A DNA stretch of 24,731 nt, taken from a virus. The stretch is from IMG/VR virus record IMGVR_UViG_3300025674_000368, positions 1 to 24,731 of that record; one strand, 5' to 3'. The position numbers were made by a program, and so were the translations under genes. A model generated the notes under the pieces. That model was not told the origin of the DNA. It worked only from the letters and a program-made list of their open reading frames with translations, and did not search any database. Below, piece by piece: positions 7,322-14,768 of the stretch; the stretch's first letter is position 1, and each line of letters opens with the position of its first letter.

Positions 7322-7744
7322 CTAGTTCAACCACTCATAACGACGCCTCAGAGGTAATTTAATGGACCATGGCAAATATGATACAAATACTGAGATAAGT
7401 CCTCGGATGACATCTCTTTTCCTCCACCATCTGATAAACCAAATGATAAAGATTGTGAGTGTAATAGGCCAAAAGATAATAGCAAGTCCACCAATGATTA
7501 AGAACCCAAAATCAGATTCAGTAAAGGCAGTTCCTGCACCTGCAGCAACACTAGCAGCAGTAGCAACAGCAGGTGGGATCTTTGGTGCTGGTGCTGGATC
7601 TTGCGTGGGATATAGTGAGACATACTTAGCACCAGTGCGTGATGCAACTTCTGCTGTTGCATCATGTATATTGTTGTTGAGAGTAGTAAATGTAGAGGAC
7701 TCAAGTCTGTTCGACTTGGTTCTAATCCAACCAATCCAGTTCAT
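7322..7744 (-). CDS. Single-span membrane protein with basic tail
   Basis: 140 residues. The first about 45 are polar, then there is an Ala/Pro-rich stretch (PAPAPKIPPAVATAASVA). Next is one strong membrane segment at about 79-105 (FGFLIIGGLAIIFWPITLTI), then a basic anchor (RWWRKRDVIR) and an amphipathic tail. It probably sits in the host inner or thylakoid membrane. It is the last gene of the oxygenase operon and starts in a TAATG overlap with the gene before it. The family is not recognised. A lysis or membrane-remodelling role is possible but unsupported. Confidence 0.7.
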   Translation of the reverse strand: MNWIGWIRTKSNRLESSTFTTLNNNIHDATAEVASRTGAKYVSLYPTQDPAPAPKIPPAVATAASVAAGAGTAFTESDFGFLIIGGLAIIFWPITLTIFIIWFIRWWRKRDVIRGLISVFVSYLPWSIKLPLRRRYEWLN

Positions 7745-7956
7745 TATTCAAATACAGGTATTACGGGAGGATTCCATTCATCTCGGTGTGCTTTCATGAC
7801 ACTCTTGGGTACACCATAGTAACCCATATGCATCCACACACAATCAAGATAACGCAAATCTTCATGATCTGCATGTAATGTGAAAGAATCACAGTATTGT
7901 ATAATATCTGCAGGCACTTCTTCCTGCTTAAATGTAATAGGATTTTCTACAAACAT
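7744..7956 (-). CDS. Hypothetical protein in the oxygenase operon, 70 residues
   Basis: 70 residues starting MFVENPITFKQEEVPAD, with several His, Cys, Tyr and Trp residues (CVWMHMGYYGVPKSVMKAH) and no membrane segment. It starts 2 nt after the stop of the adjacent oxygenase gene and ends in a TAATG overlap with the membrane protein gene, so it belongs to the same operon. The family is not recognised. It could be a small accessory protein of the oxygenases; there is no direct evidence. Confidence 0.65.
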   Translation of the reverse strand: MFVENPITFKQEEVPADIIQYCDSFTLHADHEDLRYLDCVWMHMGYYGVPKSVMKAHRDEWNPPVIPVFE

Positions 7957-7958
7957 AA

Positions 7959-8666
7959 TTATTCAAAGTCAGGTCTAAACCATATCTTATTTGTACGTCT
8001 TTTGTCAATAACTTGTGTTCTATCTTCGTTACTCAGTCTCTCAACTTTCCACCCATAATCACCATTGGTCATCATTTTAGGCATGACGTTGATGGCGAGA
8101 GTAATACGATTGTCTTCATGGTTAGTTTTATATCCATGAATGATAGTAGAAGGCCATAAGAATAGATCACCCTCGTTAGGTCTAACTTCGTCCATCTGAT
8201 TAAACCTAGTATTGTTAGTATGAGGCAGAGTCAGATTGGCGGTGTTAGGATAGATCTGAACACCAGTTGTTTTAGCAAAGTATGTGGGTGTGTGATTCTC
8301 ATTGAAGTTCACATAATACAGTGCAGTGACATACGAATTGGTATGATAGTGTGGTGCTTGTGTACCACCATCGTCACAGATATTGATCCAACTGTCTGTA
8401 ACTATCACACCTTCTTGCACATACTCTCCCATAACATTCTCTAGGAAGATGGCACTCTGTTCTTCTACCCAGTCTCTCAACTTGTGGAACTCAGGTTTAT
8501 CGAGGACAGAATAATGATCAATGTGGACTAACTCATCAGTATTTGGATTAGACTCTAGATTACTCTGACCTTTTGTGATTTCTTTTTTAATTAGTGCCTT
8601 AACTTCATCATGAAAGGGACAAGGAACAATCCCCAATGGTTGTGGCAAAATCTCTAATACTTCCAT
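7959..8666 (-). CDS. 2OG-Fe(II) oxygenase-like protein (TIGR02466-like), paralogue 1
   Basis: 235 residues with the double-stranded beta-helix pattern of a 2-oxoglutarate/iron oxygenase. SWINICDDGGTQAPHYHTNS at 92-111 carries His106 and His108 before the strand ALYYVNF. WPSTIIHGYK at 171-180 carries the distal His177, followed by Arg187 in NRITLAINV, the expected 2OG-binding position. The metal site reads HxH rather than the common HxD. It shares its opening (PLGxxxCPFH) and ending (PDF) with the gene at 9337-10041, so the two are paralogues. The substrate is unknown; protein, amino-acid or sugar hydroxylation are possible. Confidence 0.75.
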   Translation of the reverse strand: MEVLEILPQPLGIVPCPFHDEVKALIKKEITKGQSNLESNPNTDELVHIDHYSVLDKPEFHKLRDWVEEQSAIFLENVMGEYVQEGVIVTDSWINICDDGGTQAPHYHTNSYVTALYYVNFNENHTPTYFAKTTGVQIYPNTANLTLPHTNNTRFNQMDEVRPNEGDLFLWPSTIIHGYKTNHEDNRITLAINVMPKMMTNGDYGWKVERLSNEDRTQVIDKRRTNKIWFRPDFE

Positions 8667-8668
8667 GA

Positions 8669-9340
8669 TTATCCTAGTTCAGTGGGAGATACTGGGTCCA
8701 TTGTGATATGACTATTCAGAGAAATATCTCCAGCGATTGATATTCTATATCCGTCACCAGTTTGATGTGGATATACAACATGATTTAGTGTACTAGGAAA
8801 CAATAACATCGTGCCCTCAAAATCAGGAGTTAAAACCCAATCTTTCCTTTCAGTTGTACCACATATATCAGTGTAAATTATACTGAAATCTCCTGCCTGT
8901 GGTCTAAAACCACCTTGTATGTTCCTCTCTACATTACCATCGAAAGGGATACGCATCCATACAACAAAACTAAAGACTCCTTGATGACTGTGAAGAGTCT
9001 GATAATCATTGACTTCCGCTGCTCTCACCCAGAACCTATTCAGTGAAAGATCATGATAGTGAGTAGTCCTATGTATGAAAGGCAATACACCTGTGCTGCA
9101 GAACTTCTCAAAGTAGTCTGATATCAATGGCATCAAAACACTTTGAGTGAATGAATCATCGTCATCACGCATAGCATATTGTTTCTGTTCTAGTGGAATA
9201 TCCAATAATTCATTACCATCCCACTTAGAATCTTCGGGTGCATACTTACGAGCAAGTTTCCACAAATTATCAACTTGATCTTTATCAAGTTTGATTTGTA
9301 AGATGCCAGGATTAGGTAAATCTACAATTTGTACTTTCAT
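8669..9340 (-). CDS. 2OG-Fe(II) oxygenase-like protein
   Basis: 223 residues. The core reads TLHSHQGVFSFVVWMRIPF (115-133) with His117 and His119, then FEGTMLLFPSTLNHVV with the distal His187, then GYRISIAGDI with Arg199. This is the same fold pattern as its neighbours but more divergent: the N-terminal PLG/CPFH block is missing, and the core runs TxxTL-HSHxG. It starts in an ATGA overlap with the paralogue upstream and ends 2 nt before the paralogue downstream. It therefore sits between two copies of a closely related pair. The substrate is unknown. Confidence 0.7.
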   Translation of the reverse strand: MKVQIVDLPNPGILQIKLDKDQVDNLWKLARKYAPEDSKWDGNELLDIPLEQKQYAMRDDDDSFTQSVLMPLISDYFEKFCSTGVLPFIHRTTHYHDLSLNRFWVRAAEVNDYQTLHSHQGVFSFVVWMRIPFDGNVERNIQGGFRPQAGDFSIIYTDICGTTERKDWVLTPDFEGTMLLFPSTLNHVVYPHQTGDGYRISIAGDISLNSHITMDPVSPTELG

Positions 9341-10041
9341 AAGAAATCAGGAGAGTCCCAAAGTTGACCAGATCGTTGTGCAGAAACTTGTTTATTTCTA
9401 TCTTCCGTTGACAACGGAGAGATTTTATATGATCCTACTCGTGTAGGCATTAGATTGGTAGAGAATGTAATTCTATCACTGGAATCGGTATTGTTTCTCT
9501 TATATCCATGGACAACATTAGAAGGCCATAGTATAAGAGTTCCCTCCATTCCTACCACTTCGTTAGGGCAATTATACTTGGTTTGATTCTTCTTTGTCAA
9601 CATGAATACCATGTCATCCCTATACTGTTGGGCAGGATTAGGTTGATAGAAGTATGTGGGCGGATCAACTTCATCATCAAAACTTACATAGTACAAGGCA
9701 CAGATAACAGAATTACAGTGGGCATGTGGATATTGATAACCACCAGGATGACACACATTCAACCAACTGTCAGTGATCATCATCTCACCAATATCATACT
9801 TAAGTATATCGTGAGCATATATCTCCGCCTGCAATTCTATCCAGTGTCTTAATTCAGTATACTTATCTGCATGAATTGGTGAGTAGTAGTCTAGATGTTC
9901 TAGATTCCTATCATTTAATTTTTTATGCCTATTGTCACTACGATGTTCTTCAATTTCATCAAGAACTAATTTCTTGACATTCTCATGAAAGGGGCAGACT
10001 TCAACACCTAGGGGAATAGGACAAATGTCACGAATTTCCAT
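9337..10041 (-). CDS. 2OG-Fe(II) oxygenase-like protein (TIGR02466-like), paralogue 2
   Basis: 234 residues, clearly a paralogue of the gene at 7959-8666: same length, same N-terminal IxPxPLGxxxCPFH block and similar C-terminus (WDSPDFL). The putative iron site is His106 and His108 in YPHAHCNS plus His178 in WPSNVVHGYK. Arg190 in SDRITFSTNL would bind the 2OG carboxylate. It overlaps the preceding gene by 14 nt and the next by 4 nt, which indicates coupled translation. The substrate cannot be read from the sequence. Confidence 0.75.
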   Translation of the reverse strand: MEIRDICPIPLGVEVCPFHENVKKLVLDEIEEHRSDNRHKKLNDRNLEHLDYYSPIHADKYTELRHWIELQAEIYAHDILKYDIGEMMITDSWLNVCHPGGYQYPHAHCNSVICALYYVSFDDEVDPPTYFYQPNPAQQYRDDMVFMLTKKNQTKYNCPNEVVGMEGTLILWPSNVVHGYKRNNTDSSDRITFSTNLMPTRVGSYKISPLSTEDRNKQVSAQRSGQLWDSPDFL

Positions 10042-10654
10042 TTAGATTATCCATATAGTCAATGAATCCAGGAGAATCATGATTATTATCCAGGTAAGTA
10101 TTGAAACTTACTGTGATCCTATCCTCATCACTCTCATTTGGTTTGCTACCATGTTCCAACCAACTTGGGAAAATATATAACCAGTTCTCTTGCAAATTCA
10201 TCTCTGCAGCAGAGTTCTGATAATAGTTTGGTTTAACGTGCATCTCACACATGCGATATTGTTGCAGTGGAGATATAAAATAGAGATTTCCGCTGTTTTC
10301 TGGCAGTTTCAGGTAGAAAGCACCGCTGATGACACTAGATTCATGTCTATGTCTCTCAGTATAACCTCCAGGAGGCAGTACATTATACCAACCACCAGAG
10401 ATTACAGTAGGCCATGATGCAACTTTGGTTGAGTAATCCTGCACACAACGTTGAAAGATCTCCAACAAAGGTCGAGACTTAGGATCAGTCAGTGGATCAT
10501 ATCCTCCATGACTACTTCTACCATTGACAGCAAGAGAATGATCACTATTCTTCTTATTCTCAATGGCATCCATTACAACACCACGAAAAGATCTCACCTC
10601 CTCAGTAAAGGAAGTGAGATCGTATGCTTCAACTAATGTGGGAAAGAGATCCAT
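10028..10654 (-). CDS. 2OG-Fe(II) oxygenase-like protein (TIGR02466-like)
   Basis: 208 residues matching my memory of the TIGR02466 family: it starts MDLFPTLVEAYDL, then has a SGGWYNVLPPGGYTERHRHE block (86-105) with His102 and His104. GAFYLKLP is the core strand, IFPSWLEHGS carries His168, and DRITVSF carries Arg179. HGGYDPL near residue 49 is also reminiscent of this family. It starts in a TAATG overlap with the upstream gene. Of the four HxH-type genes this looks the most typical of the family. The reaction is inferred, not shown. Confidence 0.8.
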   Translation of the reverse strand: MDLFPTLVEAYDLTSFTEEVRSFRGVVMDAIENKKNSDHSLAVNGRSSHGGYDPLTDPKSRPLLEIFQRCVQDYSTKVASWPTVISGGWYNVLPPGGYTERHRHESSVISGAFYLKLPENSGNLYFISPLQQYRMCEMHVKPNYYQNSAAEMNLQENWLYIFPSWLEHGSKPNESDEDRITVSFNTYLDNNHDSPGFIDYMDNLNGNS

Positions 10655-11154
10655 TACATGAAATTGATATTAAGTACGACCCTGAGGTCAGCGTCAGTAG
10701 TAGATGTTCCTGCGTGTTTTAGATCTCCCGTGAAGAAGACTGCCCTATTGGCAACTGAAGGAACCACATCACCCTGTTCAAAATATGTATATCCGTCACA
10801 GGTATTCAAATAATAGATGCAGATTTTACTTTGGATAGGAACCTCTCCATTCATGTCACTTGTGATGTCATAGTGGAGAGGTTTCTTGACGATTTCATGA
10901 GTTCTTGCAGTAGCATTGAACTTAACTCTCATCAGTCCATATGGATTGATCCTAGAAATAATAGGAGCAACGTTCTGCCATATTGGAGAGACTGGTTCTA
11001 AGTTATCGTAACAAGTGTGGGAGAACTGTGGACAACCATCGTCAAGATGTACTGAAGATGATGCCCAGAACCAAGGAAGTCGCCCTCCTAGGGCGAGATC
11101 CTTGAGTCCTTCAAACTCCCCTTGGGGGAGGAAATCGTCAACGATTTCTATCAC
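10654..11154 (-). CDS. 2OG-Fe(II) oxygenase-like protein, canonical HxD type
   Basis: 166 residues with the usual HxD...H...R site: His94 and Asp96 in KPLHYDITSD, distal His147 in GDLKHAGTS, and Arg158 in DADLRVVLNINF. ICIYYLNTCDGYTYFEQG is the core strand region, where the equivalent of GGxxxF would lie. It resembles prolyl-4-hydroxylase-like proteins of phages, and the substrate is unknown. The start is a GTG in a GTGA overlap with the stop of the DUF262-HNH gene, with GGAGAAGAG at good distance. It is the first of five oxygenases behind the nuclease-like gene. Confidence 0.75.
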   Translation of the reverse strand: MIEIVDDFLPQGEFEGLKDLALGGRLPWFWASSSVHLDDGCPQFSHTCYDNLEPVSPIWQNVAPIISRINPYGLMRVKFNATARTHEIVKKPLHYDITSDMNGEVPIQSKICIYYLNTCDGYTYFEQGDVVPSVANRAVFFTGDLKHAGTSTTDADLRVVLNINFM

Positions 11155-12698
11155 GAATCACTCTTCTCCAAGTTTGCGTCTGCGAGGACAAGTTGCATGT
11201 TCTCGAAGATCGTTTGTCCACCCTTTGCGTGTGCCTTGATGTGATCCATGTGAGTCTTTTCACCGTCTTCAACCCACTCGAAGGGGATGATTTCACCAGT
11301 GAGAGCACACTTCTGATCCTGTTGAGACCACAGTGGAATCCTCCACTCTTGAGGTGCATAACGCACGGGATCTTTCTTGACAAAGATACCACGTTCTTGC
11401 ATCACAGGCATAACAACATTGTCCAGGAATGCCTTGCGGTGCTTCATCTTGTAGTAAGTATTAGCACCGTAGAGGTCAACGAACGTACACATGTTGGTCT
11501 GTCCGTTTGCACTGGTTTCATACTTTGCAGTGGTATCAGACCAGAAGGGTTTGATGAGTTCCTTGTATGTCTGGAAGAAAGCGTCGTAGTTCAACTTACG
11601 CTTACTGTCCCGTGCAAGTTCACCACCAGACTTGTACACATCGACCAAGAGAATATAAAGATCGATCAGACGATTGCGACCCTTACCACCAGCACCGAAG
11701 TTAGTGCCATACTCCATCAGATAGTCACGAACAAAGGGAATAAAGATACCCTCAAAGAACTCTTTGAACTCAGGGAACTTCTGTTCAGTAATAGAGTTGG
11801 GACTATACTCTTCATCAAGAACCTTGGACTGCCAAGGATCATTCGAGGTGGAAACACCTGCAGCATAGTAGTTTGCAAGTGATGCAAGATATGCACAGAA
11901 CTTGTAGCGAAGTGTATTGGACTTCGTTACAAACGAGATCTTGTCATTAGAGAGACAGAAGGTCTCTTTGTAGAGGTCATTCATGTCACGAATCCAACCA
12001 CAAATATCTGCGGTGGAACAGTTACGAAGTTCCTCAGCATTGAGGTTCTCGTTGTCATTCAGTTTGCGGAATAGATCAGAACGCTCATCACGAGTCAGAT
12101 CCTTGTACTCAATGAACAGGAACAGTTGGTTATCAATAGAATCAGACAACAGAAGGAAATCTCCACCCTCTGCAATCAGATTCTCACGGGTGTAGTAGTT
12201 AGTCTTGCACAGAGCAACAATAACATCATCACCATTGACGTTGATAATATAGTTGCCAGGTTCAAGACAGACCTTGTTGTCATACCAATCAATCAAAGTA
12301 TCAGATCGGTTACCACCATCAATGTGGATGTGAGTGTAACCCTGATCAATGAAAGATTGCATGTGATCGATGAACTGAATGTCACGGGGATTCCCGTAAC
12401 GAGATGCCATCGGTTGCAAGTTGTTGATAGTCTCTACCAGATTCACAAGGTGAAAGAGAGTAGTAGAGGAGAAACCATGAGCAACTGCACTCATGTAAGA
12501 AGACTGTTTGCCAGGAATAGAACGCCACACAGATTCGCGTTGCACAGTGCGGTCACGTCCACAATTCCGTAGAATGTCGATGAACTTAAATGCAGGTGTG
12601 TGATGCATCTTCATCGCGAGTTTGCGATAAGTTGTCAGCGAAGATTTCGCGACAGTATCGACCTTACCGAAACCGATGTTCTCTTTTTTGCTAGACAT
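11151..12698 (-). CDS. DUF262 plus HNH nuclease-like protein
   Basis: 515 residues. The N-terminal half fits DUF262 (ParB/sulfiredoxin-like fold, as in GmrSD-type restriction proteins). It has VQRESVW at 52-58, HIDGGNR at 125-131 in place of the usual DGQQR, and LFRKLNDNENLNAEELRNCS at 209-228, a typical DUF262 signature. The C-terminus is an HNH nuclease: CALTG at 464-468, HMDH at 483-486, His490, Asn500 and Asn509. DUF262 proteins with nuclease domains usually sense or cut modified or foreign DNA using nucleotide hydrolysis. In a phage this could attack host or competitor DNA, but the target is unknown. It has its own sigma70-like promoter and an AAGGAG 9-10 nt before the ATG, and is coupled to the oxygenase array. 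Confidence 0.8.
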   Translation of the reverse strand: MSSKKENIGFGKVDTVAKSSLTTYRKLAMKMHHTPAFKFIDILRNCGRDRTVQRESVWRSIPGKQSSYMSAVAHGFSSTTLFHLVNLVETINNLQPMASRYGNPRDIQFIDHMQSFIDQGYTHIHIDGGNRSDTLIDWYDNKVCLEPGNYIINVNGDDVIVALCKTNYYTRENLIAEGGDFLLLSDSIDNQLFLFIEYKDLTRDERSDLFRKLNDNENLNAEELRNCSTADICGWIRDMNDLYKETFCLSNDKISFVTKSNTLRYKFCAYLASLANYYAAGVSTSNDPWQSKVLDEEYSPNSITEQKFPEFKEFFEGIFIPFVRDYLMEYGTNFGAGGKGRNRLIDLYILLVDVYKSGGELARDSKRKLNYDAFFQTYKELIKPFWSDTTAKYETSANGQTNMCTFVDLYGANTYYKMKHRKAFLDNVVMPVMQERGIFVKKDPVRYAPQEWRIPLWSQQDQKCALTGEIIPFEWVEDGEKTHMDHIKAHAKGGQTIFENMQLVLADANLEKSDS

Positions 12699-12724
12699 AA
12701 TAAAAACTCCTTGGAGTGTAGGTT

Positions 12725-12755
12725 AGATGTCTTCGTGGGTCGTAACCCGTCCGAC
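12725..12755 (-). promoter_or_regulatory. Possible leader hairpin of the DUF262-HNH gene
   Basis: In the leader, ATGTC...GACAT can pair around an inner GGGT-TACG-ACCC stem (minus strand). The structure lies between the predicted transcription start and the AAGGAG of the nuclease-like gene. It may tune expression or stability. The pairing is modest and unproven. Confidence 0.3.
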
Positions 12756-12762
12756 ATGAGTA

Positions 12763-12791
12763 AGTATGTCAGATTCTGGCAGTATTGTCAA
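12763..12791 (-). promoter_or_regulatory. Sigma70-like promoter for the nuclease-oxygenase operon
   Basis: A perfect -35 TTGACA (12791-12786) is separated by 17 nt from CATACT (12768-12763), a 4/6 match to the -10. It lies downstream of the terminator at 12814-12839 and about 65 nt before the ATG at 12698. It is the only window element with a perfect -35 at ideal spacing, so host RNA polymerase could transcribe the unit early. Confidence 0.65.
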
Positions 12792-12813: not shown

Positions 12814-12839
12814 AAAATGGGTCGGCACTTGACCGACCC
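12814..12839 (-). terminator. Rho-independent terminator
   Basis: Minus-strand GGGTCGG-TCAAGTG-CCGACCC forms a perfect 7-bp GC-rich stem followed by ATTTTAATTTC. It lies 33 nt after the stop of the coiled-coil gene at 12872-13039 and insulates it from the nuclease-oxygenase operon. Confidence 0.75.
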
Positions 12840-12871: not shown

Positions 12872-13039
12872 TCAATCAGCATCCATAGCTGCTTCTTTAT
12901 CAAGAATCTCTAGCATTTCAATAGCACCTAGAATCTTGAGAAACTCTTCTTTCTTTACTTCAAACGCTTTAGACATTTCTTGAATCTCTTTTTCTAAAGC
13001 ATCTTTGCGTTTTGTTAGATATTCTTTGTGGTCAGACAT
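12872..13039 (-). CDS. Small coiled-coil protein, 55 residues
   Basis: The frame from ATG 13039 to TGA 12872 encodes 55 charged residues (MSDHKEYLTKRKDALEKEIQ, then SKAFEVKKEEFLKILGAIEM), almost certainly one or two long helices. It is a single-gene unit: a CTAAATA late promoter 22 nt upstream and a terminator 33 nt downstream. This isolation suggests an abundant or separately timed late product, possibly a virion or assembly component. There is no Shine-Dalgarno sequence. The family is not recognised. Confidence 0.7.
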   Translation of the reverse strand: MSDHKEYLTKRKDALEKEIQEMSKAFEVKKEEFLKILGAIEMLEILDKEAAMDAD

Positions 13040-13103: not shown

Positions 13104-14768
13104 ATGGAAAGGGAAGTACAAACAAATCAAGAATGGGTTCGTATGCAATCGGACCTTGAAAGAAAATGTGATTCGGATGCTGCTTCTGGAACTAATATAA
13201 CTGAGTGGACTCCTGTAAGATATAATATCAAGTGTCACGAAGAAGTATATAAAACACTAGCAACCCAAGGAGATTTTCCTTGTAGGATATATTATAGAGA
13301 AGAAGAGTTAGATCCTGAAAGAACATCTGGAATCAGATCTATTGTTGTGCTTACTACTGAAGAGTTTCTAGATCCAGTAGGAGATCACGAAAACAAAGAG
13401 TTTACAGCATGGTTCTCAAAACCAGGAACAATTCTTGTAAACGCGATTTGCAGATGTCCCGCTGAAGGACAATCTATCACCAGCACAAGAGACTGTAGAG
13501 ATTGTGTCAAGTGGTTGTCTGCACAAGATTTTCTTGCACAATTCAACGGCAATAAAGATAAAATTTATGTTGTAGATGAGAATAATTCAGTTGTTCTTAT
13601 GAACTATGATTCTCTATCTGCATCATTATCTGTCAACGAACCAATTAGTTTTGATATTTGGGATAATGAAGTTCCTTTCCCTGGTAATGAGGATCTATTA
13701 TCACCAGCGTCTTCATCATCGAGTACTGAACTTCCATCAGATATTATTGGAAATGGATCTGTCAGTCTAGTTTATAATACTCTGTTCGGTAGTGGTTCTA
13801 TTTCTTTCTCTGCACTAAAGAGTAATTTTGGTGGAGGAAATTCCATCAACACATATTATCGTGGCGGAAACGCTGTTGTTAATGTATCCAATAATAACAA
13901 TGTTCCTACTGGAGGAACTATTAGTTTCAGTCAATTTAGAAACAGTACTAATAAAGTAAGTGGTCACTGTAATGGCAACTTCTCTCATCTACAAATGAGA
14001 TGGGAAGTTTATGGTGACACACTTTGGACAAGTAAATTAAACAAAACAACCAGACTAAGTGGACATGCAGGTGCAATCAATATTAATAATCCTGCTCTTA
14101 GATTCAATAATTCTGGTCAAGGCACGATTGAGTTAGAAACTGCTGGTAATGGATTTGCTATGGGTGAACCAGGACAACCAGGCAATGGTGGTGGCGGTAG
14201 AGGAAATGATGGCGGTTGGGCAATTCACCTCGCAAGTCCAACAAAGATTAGCGATTCTGTATGGGTAGGCAGAGTAAAAGGTGCCGGCGGCGGTGGCGGC
14301 GGTGGAGGAAATGGCGGCAGAGGTGGCGGTGGAGGTCACTCTGGAGTCATTAAATGTACTGGTTGGTTCTGTAATGGTAGGGCAAGAGATTGCCGTAGAG
14401 ATGGTGGCAATGGTGGTGGTGGCGGAAATGGTGGACGAGGTGGATGGGGCAGAGGATATGCCTGGAATGGATCATCATGGGTTGACACTGCCGTGTGGCA
14501 AGGCGGTCAGGGCGGCAATGGCGGCGGTGGAGGTAACGGCAGAGCAGGAGGAAATGGCGGCGGTGGAGGTAGCGGCGGCAGTGGCGGCGGTTGGGGTGCC
14601 TCTGGTGCCGGCGGCAATGGCGGCGGTCGTGGTAACGATGGCGGAGGCGATCAACACGGTTGCGGATATAATGGAGACCGCAGTGGTAGAGGAGGAAACG
14701 GTGGCGGAGGCGGTGGAAATAACCGTGCCAAGTTCACTACTTCCGACAATGGTTATAGATATGCCTAA
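13104..14768 (+). CDS. Glycine-rich tail-tip adhesin-like protein
   Basis: The only plus-strand gene; 554 residues. Residues of about 1-220 are a Cys-containing, non-repetitive domain. Then come two repeats with an ISFS core, SGSISFSALKSNFGG and GGTISFSQFRNSTN (about residues 229-245 and 269-282), a motif I associate with tail-fibre proteins. Residues of about 354-545 are dominated by glycine runs (GGNGGGGGNGGRGG type) separated by short variable segments. This is like the polyglycine-II adhesins at the tips of T-even long tail fibres (gp38-like), which set host receptor range. Third codon positions switch to GGC/GGT, raising local GC. A late-type CTAAATA box lies 26 nt upstream and a terminator lies downstream. 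Receptor binding is inferred. Confidence 0.75.
   Translation: MEREVQTNQEWVRMQSDLERKCDSDAASGTNITEWTPVRYNIKCHEEVYKTLATQGDFPCRIYYREEELDPERTSGIRSIVVLTTEEFLDPVGDHENKEFTAWFSKPGTILVNAICRCPAEGQSITSTRDCRDCVKWLSAQDFLAQFNGNKDKIYVVDENNSVVLMNYDSLSASLSVNEPISFDIWDNEVPFPGNEDLLSPASSSSSTELPSDIIGNGSVSLVYNTLFGSGSISFSALKSNFGGGNSINTYYRGGNAVVNVSNNNNVPTGGTISFSQFRNSTNKVSGHCNGNFSHLQMRWEVYGDTLWTSKLNKTTRLSGHAGAININNPALRFNNSGQGTIELETAGNGFAMGEPGQPGNGGGGRGNDGGWAIHLASPTKISDSVWVGRVKGAGGGGGGGGNGGRGGGGGHSGVIKCTGWFCNGRARDCRRDGGNGGGGGNGGRGGWGRGYAWNGSSWVDTAVWQGGQGGNGGGGGNGRAGGNGGGGGSGGSGGGWGASGAGGNGGGRGNDGGGDQHGCGYNGDRSGRGGNGGGGGGNNRAKFTTSDNGYRYA

Follow-up and report, generated by a model that had tools for sequence, protein, structure and literature searches.

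The window analysed here, a 24,731-nt fragment of a T4-like cyanophage (IMG/VR record IMGVR_UViG_3300025674_000368), carries an operon in which a gene for an HNH-type nuclease is followed by five genes of oxygenase fold. Comparison with related phages revealed that the nuclease is exchanged alone while the oxygenases are left in place. On balance, we consider it probable that the position between a small upstream gene, p55, and the first oxygenase gene, oxA, is a slot for exchangeable nucleases that act against non-self DNA. The remainder of the fragment includes a fibre gene with an S74 domain, gnd, zwf and a gene for a UvsW-type helicase, all named via homology to annotated phages. The operon and the elements at its upstream edge are, in order of transcription:

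12872..13039, minus strand: p55, 55 amino acids (aa), marking the upstream edge of the slot; homologous p64/p65 genes hold the equivalent position in nearly all loci
12819..12839, minus strand: intrinsic-terminator-like hairpin separating p55 from the operon, conserved in phage Sf-FS3 and at the related locus L004
12763..12791, minus strand: sigma70-like promoter, TTGACA-17-CATACT, near the upstream edge of the exchanged cassette, also conserved in Sf-FS3 and L004
11151..12698, minus strand: nuclease, 515 aa, the slot occupant, with a predicted ParB/DUF262 fold, a helical middle and a C-terminal HNH domain (Pfam, family members and predicted fold)
10654..11154, minus strand: oxA, 166 aa, oxygenase-fold, with an H-x-D...H...R pattern (phrog_274; alignment); downstream edge of the cassette
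10028..10654, minus strand: oxB, 208 aa, PF13759 2-oxoglutarate (2OG)-Fe(II) oxygenase family (PF13759 E 3.7e-23; TIGR02466 above cut-off)
9337..10041, minus strand: oxC, 234 aa, PF13759 family (Pfam); paralogue of oxE, 39% identical
8669..9340, minus strand: oxD, 223 aa, PF13759 family (Pfam), missing from the other mapped arrays
7959..8666, minus strand: oxE, 235 aa, PF13759 family (Pfam)
7744..7956, minus strand: 70-aa gene (phrog_9456)
7322..7744, minus strand: 140-aa protein, probably of the membrane, as its sequence has a long hydrophobic stretch; no family found in Pfam or PHROG

The eight open reading frames from the nuclease to the 140-aa protein run from 12791 to 7322 on the minus strand, and their seven junctions measure, in order, -4, -1, -14, -4, +2, +2 and -1 nt; the GTG start of oxA overlaps the nuclease stop (GTGA). 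With genes that overlap or are at most 2 nt apart, the single operon described in the initial annotation is confirmed. The promoter and upstream terminator proposed there were likewise found and are conserved as listed, the promoter pattern by itself being at chance level (15 sites found against 19 expected).

We surveyed the slot in 60 IMG/VR contigs picked by oxA and not dereplicated by population. The gene directly upstream of oxA was of HNH type in 26 contigs, GIY-YIG-ParB in 23 and MjaI-type in one, that is, a recognisable nuclease in 50/60, and the remaining 10/60 held a two-gene cassette of unknown type. Scans by oxB plus oxA placed divergent HNH proteins among the occupants as well. 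In the two-gene cassette a variable gene is followed by a conserved one of ~180 aa; Pfam and PHROG yielded no clear family for this class, its ParB-like motif being a by-eye reading. Only three slots were empty (L052, L060 and L061; 161 bp), all in divergent phages; nine further loci considered as empty slots were ruled out, as all were classed GIY-YIG, a 421-aa GIY-YIG gene being present in those looked at again. The mapped loci keep a common gene order: fibre gene, two oxygenases, p388, a glycine-rich gene on the other strand, p55/p64, nuclease, one to five oxygenases, gp69, slyX and uvsW.

Pairwise comparisons located the exchange, this cassette being the sole difference between some genomes that are otherwise almost the same. 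L004 and Sf-FS3 are 95-97% identical on both sides of the slot, but the L004 stretch from promoter to nuclease stop is instead about 95% identical to the window. At the protein level, window and L004 share 95% identity in the nuclease and only 53% in oxB, 59% in uvsW and 44% in ox20, while Sf-FS3 and L004 share 52% in the nuclease against 95% in oxB and 98% in both uvsW and ox20; the values for Sf-FS3 and L009 are 75% (nuclease), 52% (oxB) and 56% (uvsW). Taken over its oxygenases and helicase, the phage that carries the window nuclease allele at 95% identity is only 47-59% identical to the window. Loci L059 and L062 have flanks 99.7/99.4% identical and occupants 28% identical. Despite alike flanks, the occupant type itself differs between L053 (HNH) and L054 (GIY-YIG) and between L071 (GIY-YIG) and L078 (HNH), and three further pairs (L064/L090, L077/L083 and L084/L100) combine similar or near-identical flanks with different occupants. 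The upstream breakpoint of the cassette lies near the promoter and the downstream one exactly at the overlap of nuclease stop and oxygenase start. For the window and L004 nucleases, the ratio of nonsynonymous to synonymous substitution rates (0.026/0.20 = 0.13) indicates purifying selection. The oxygenases too are shuffled: in L005, oxE and uvsW are 100% identical to those of the window, oxA to oxC are 53-76% identical and oxD is missing.

What the occupants have in common was approached through their domains and predicted folds. The window nuclease gave an HNH match just below the Pfam cut-off and, taken alone, no match to PF03235 (GmrSD_N/DUF262) in Pfam. Among the 23 members of its family, 22 matched HNH and four matched PF03235 (best E 4e-8), and D127, N130 and R131 were invariant in all 23. 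In the AlphaFold model (predicted local distance difference test 83, predicted template modelling score 0.71), matches to ParB (Z 8.2), SspE (Z 7.1) and BrxU (Z 7.1) were obtained on re-alignment of the N-terminal domain (residues ~23-219 or ~29-217, and beyond for BrxU), and residues 448-515 re-align to Cas9-type HNH domains, with Z 8.5 for that of GeoCas9. A model of a GIY-YIG plus ParB-fold occupant re-aligns to I-TevI (Z 7.2) and ParB (Z 8.3). These fold calls were made from the VIA re-alignment (Z about 7-8.5), motifs and Pfam; Foldseek by itself returned no hit with E <0.001 for either model. A predicted ParB fold is thus common to the two large occupant classes. The DUF262-HNH label of the initial annotation holds for the HNH part and, through four of 23 relatives and the predicted ParB/SspE/BrxU fold, for DUF262, even though the window protein lacks a DUF262 match of its own.

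GmrS/DUF262 has been placed in the ParB/Srx fold, and an NTP (nucleoside triphosphate)-binding D-G-Q-Q-R motif has been proposed (PMC4619093). The window nuclease shares with GmrSD, BrxU and SspE an N-terminal ParB/Srx-fold domain, a D-G-x-x-R motif and a C-terminal nuclease of the HNH superfamily. It differs from them in that its C-terminal part, known here from sequence and model, is a Cas9-type HNH (PF01844/HNH_4) rather than DUF1524; PF01844, HNH_4 and HNH_5 match this part of the family, and DUF1524 is absent among the matches listed. It is moreover encoded by a phage, from an exchange slot that precedes an array of oxygenase genes.

The occupant of L135 belongs to a different kind of enzyme, a MjaI-type restriction enzyme (RE_MjaI domain, PF09568, E 3.7e-46, 157 bits against a cut-off of 22.7), whose recognition site we take to be CTAG. 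The contig of L135 (G001, IMGVR 3300020472_000055, 45.6 kb) contains nine CTAG against 107 expected; all nine fall within one 2.8-kb tail-fibre-like tract (19.85-22.6 kb, L196-L198), leaving 0 against 95 expected elsewhere. This tract is perhaps a recent import or the product of a mixed assembly. L200 and L213, which have the same type of occupant, show 0/30 and 0/23 CTAG (observed/expected), and the isolate S-SM2 (NC_015279), whose MjaI-type enzyme lies outside the slot, just upstream of uvsW, shows 0/85 over 50 kb and 0/34 over a further 24 kb. Most sites survive in related phages that lack the enzyme: 53/58 in the window, a fragment only, 41/41 in Sf-FS3 and 34/48 in S-SSM7. The enzyme was absent from five complete control genomes (S-SSM7, Sf-FS3, S-ShM2, S-SCSM1 and S-RIM2).

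M.MjaI groups with N4-methylcytosine CTAG methyltransferases (PMC5867850). A methyltransferase of the PF01555 family was found neither in complete S-SM2 nor in the 45.6- and 46.4-kb fragments of G001 and the L200 contig; S-CAM3 and S-H9-2 do have one. Where the enzyme has an adjacent methyltransferase, some CTAG are kept (24/114 in S-CAM3, 10/95 in S-H9-2 and 18/32 in L205). Because CTAG was lost where no methyltransferase was found, the MjaI-type occupant appears to be cutting DNA in vivo while the phage protects itself by site loss; compared with the MjaI Type II restriction-modification system, site depletion would thus replace methylation. A literature search turned up no paper dealing with CTAG and restriction enzymes of cyanophages.

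The oxygenases behind the slot were examined in turn. oxB, oxC, oxD and oxE exceed the curated Pfam cut-off for PF13759. The canonical 2OG-Fe(II) signature is an H-x-D/E...H metal triad with a 2OG-binding Arg; all four carry H-x-H, as do two solved relatives, 2rg4 and 3bvc, and for this reason we regard "oxygenase" in these genes as a family annotation. For oxA there was no significant Pfam match, and its H-x-D...H...R pattern is invariant in five aligned family members. The count of five oxygenase-fold genes given in the initial annotation is accordingly secure in Pfam for four of them and depends on the pattern for oxA. The oxA family is called "DNA endonuclease V" in PHROG 274, a label propagated into several phage records and probably an annotation error, since oxA shows this oxygenase-type pattern. 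oxB to oxE belong to the widespread cyanophage PF13759/TIGR02466 2OG-Fe(II) oxygenases (PMC3037559), here arranged, unlike there, one to five in tandem behind a nuclease slot.

The initial annotation had joined nuclease and oxygenases into one system, with the oxygenases modifying DNA or another molecule recognised by, or barred to, the nuclease. Such a system is suggested by the single promoter, by the gene overlaps and by the nuclease-type gene that precedes oxA in nearly all related contigs, and ParB/DUF262 nucleases can be modification-dependent (PMC4619093). Nuclease and oxygenases would, however, need to travel together, and they do not. Swaps replace the nuclease but not the oxygenases, and they occur between unrelated nuclease types. 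The HNH nuclease of the window occurs without the downstream array in L007 and L019, and in L011 and L012, where one oxygenase-like gene lies upstream instead. Conversely, relatives of the oxygenases were found in 134-258 phage records per gene searched, about 250 records having them without the nuclease; the nuclease was found in 4/50,697 phage records (Sf-FS3, S-SSM7 in two records, and S-SSM6a), at the locus equivalent to the window in Sf-FS3 and S-SSM7. A single-protein search yielded one nuclease relative and an alignment-based scan of IMG/VR 26 loci; in cellular genomes the search for the HNH nuclease gave one contig only, probably a mis-binned phage. The Tet_JBP profile matched none of the five oxygenase genes (Pfam, E 0.1). 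Furthermore, L135, L200 and L213 carry oxA, oxB and oxE and still lost CTAG, so the oxygenases appear to give no protection for the MjaI-type occupant. The proposed coupling is therefore unsupported, and we judge a joint system very unlikely. The adjacency is indeed conserved among the oxA contigs, but the linkage in unrelated phages that would have supported a system was not seen, since these phages are related, as their shared synteny indicates. Operon structure in phages is, by this example, poor evidence of a joint pathway.

Gene neighbourhoods suggest another task for the oxygenases. Relatives of oxA, oxB and oxE adjoin tail-fibre genes, with no nuclease, in S-CAM4, P-RSM6, Syn30, P-HM1, S-ShM2 and S-SM2, in an inspection of about seven genomes made by eye rather than by statistics, and relatives of oxD stand near replication or head-tail genes. 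The oxygenases would then share a promoter with the slot occupant yet be functionally separate from it, their likeliest substrate being a virion or tail-fibre protein.

The main rival to an exchangeable slot for non-self nucleases is a homing site, at which free-standing homing endonucleases cut phages that lack the locus or differ at it and, to their own benefit, are copied in by gene conversion, with marker exclusion as a possible by-product. Gene-sized exchange tracts at a constant site, with edges at the nuclease gene, are what homing would produce; HNH and GIY-YIG are the classical homing families, and the GIY-YIG occupants resemble I-TevI, as noted above, and match PHROG "homing endonuclease" families. 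Nucleases at the edges of allele-exchange tracts are documented in phages, including T4 homing endonuclease genes and the T5orf172 and IPA-HNH genes of ICP1 (PMC10448857), and are suspected in cyanophages (PMC3037559). Here, however, unrelated classes interchange at one constant site whose occupancy is near complete (60/60 in the oxA sample, with three empty sites known), whereas homing genes are usually sporadic. The ParB-like domain of both large classes is, to our knowledge, unlike known homing enzymes. One occupant, moreover, belongs to a family of Type II restriction enzymes, and the phages carrying it have been purged of its 4-bp site; a homing gene would have no need of this. Because plain homing does not account for sites being nearly always filled, for the common ParB fold or for the restriction enzyme with genome-wide site loss, we favour the exchangeable non-self-nuclease slot and hold homing for a somewhat unlikely account of the locus as a whole, though possibly part of how cassettes spread.

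As we picture it, the slot would be a site of exchange for single cassettes, shared by a group of large T4-like cyanophages and occupied by one nuclease cassette at a time, with unrelated cassettes replacing one another, probably by homologous recombination in the conserved flanks. The occupant would cut non-self DNA (competing phages, satellites or the host) and spare its own phage, in the MjaI-type case through lost CTAG sites. The window ParB-fold-HNH protein may be an NTP-gated nuclease like GmrSD, BrxU or SspE that acts only on modified DNA or at a long, rare site missing from these phages. It is unlikely to target a short unmodified site of high frequency, since the window allele has moved into an Sf-FS3-like genome. 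RGCY (AGCT, AGCC/GGCT and GGCC) was considered as the target (9 observed against 88 expected in the window, 1-24731) and rejected, as nearly all these cyanophages strongly avoid it whatever their occupant. The initial annotation had also foreseen an attack on DNA; a role against non-self DNA is what we favour, and the tie to the oxygenases appears wrong on this evidence.

A more specific proposal, which we advance tentatively, is a dedicated weapon site against competing mobile DNA. It would combine ParB-fold, probably NTP-gated nucleases with interchangeable cutters (HNH, GIY-YIG, perhaps a separate subunit) and stand-alone restriction enzymes without methyltransferases; self-immunity would come from genome-wide target loss or dependence on foreign modification, and diversity would be maintained by frequency-dependent selection. 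A further alternative, degradation of host DNA for nucleotides or for stopping host transcription, with exchange as drift among interchangeable nucleases, seems most unlikely to us. A short-site MjaI-type enzyme would cut the host too if its CTAG were unmodified, and self-sparing by site loss fits, but the diversity of ParB-coupled nucleases and their frequent swapping would be left unexplained.

Several observations weigh against a slot for non-self nucleases. Evidence of activity comes from the MjaI-type occupant only, in three slot contigs and, outside the slot, S-SM2. G001 keeps nine CTAG in its tail-fibre tract, and L105-L109, L113 and L115, in which oxB relatives are present, have zero CTAG and no MjaI homologue in the fragments searched; CTAG loss therefore has other causes too. 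For the HNH occupant, no depleted site was found that distinguishes HNH phages. The two-gene class (10/60) is no more than a putative nuclease. Many surveyed contigs may stem from related populations and not be independent, and an operon so constant might after all reflect a functional link in which the type of nuclease does not matter.

Nucleases carried by phages have been described at exchange hotspots before, with endonuclease-linked cassettes in cyanophages as a precedent (PMC3037559), and in sequence terms the slot looks like a phage nuclease exchange site of this known kind in a new form. In ICP1, odn and CRISPR-Cas likewise provide a phage with sequence-specific nucleases, one taking the place of the other, and Odn is a GIY-YIG nuclease aimed at a satellite (PMC8263062); the present case differs in phage and folds, in its link to an oxygenase operon and in that a satellite target would be hypothetical. 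One constant slot common to unrelated ParB-coupled nucleases and to a methyltransferase-less restriction enzyme whose cut site is purged would offer a natural readout of gene activity in wild marine viruses, and competition between viruses, or between viruses and satellites, in the ocean would become testable with defined genes.

Three minor features of the locus deserve mention. oxD was seen in the window array only, and its relatives lie between gp43 and uvsX in P-SSM2 or beside gp3 in S-H35; confined in this way, with relatives sited elsewhere, it gives the impression of having joined the array recently. The near-identical strain L005 (2896-3408) has an additional gene, of 170 aa, which separates the 70-aa gene from that of the membrane protein (window 7322-7956). 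Finally, the opposite strand at the upstream edge of the slot encodes a conserved 554-aa protein (window 13104-14768, plus strand) with a very glycine-rich C-terminal half, possibly a tail adhesin.

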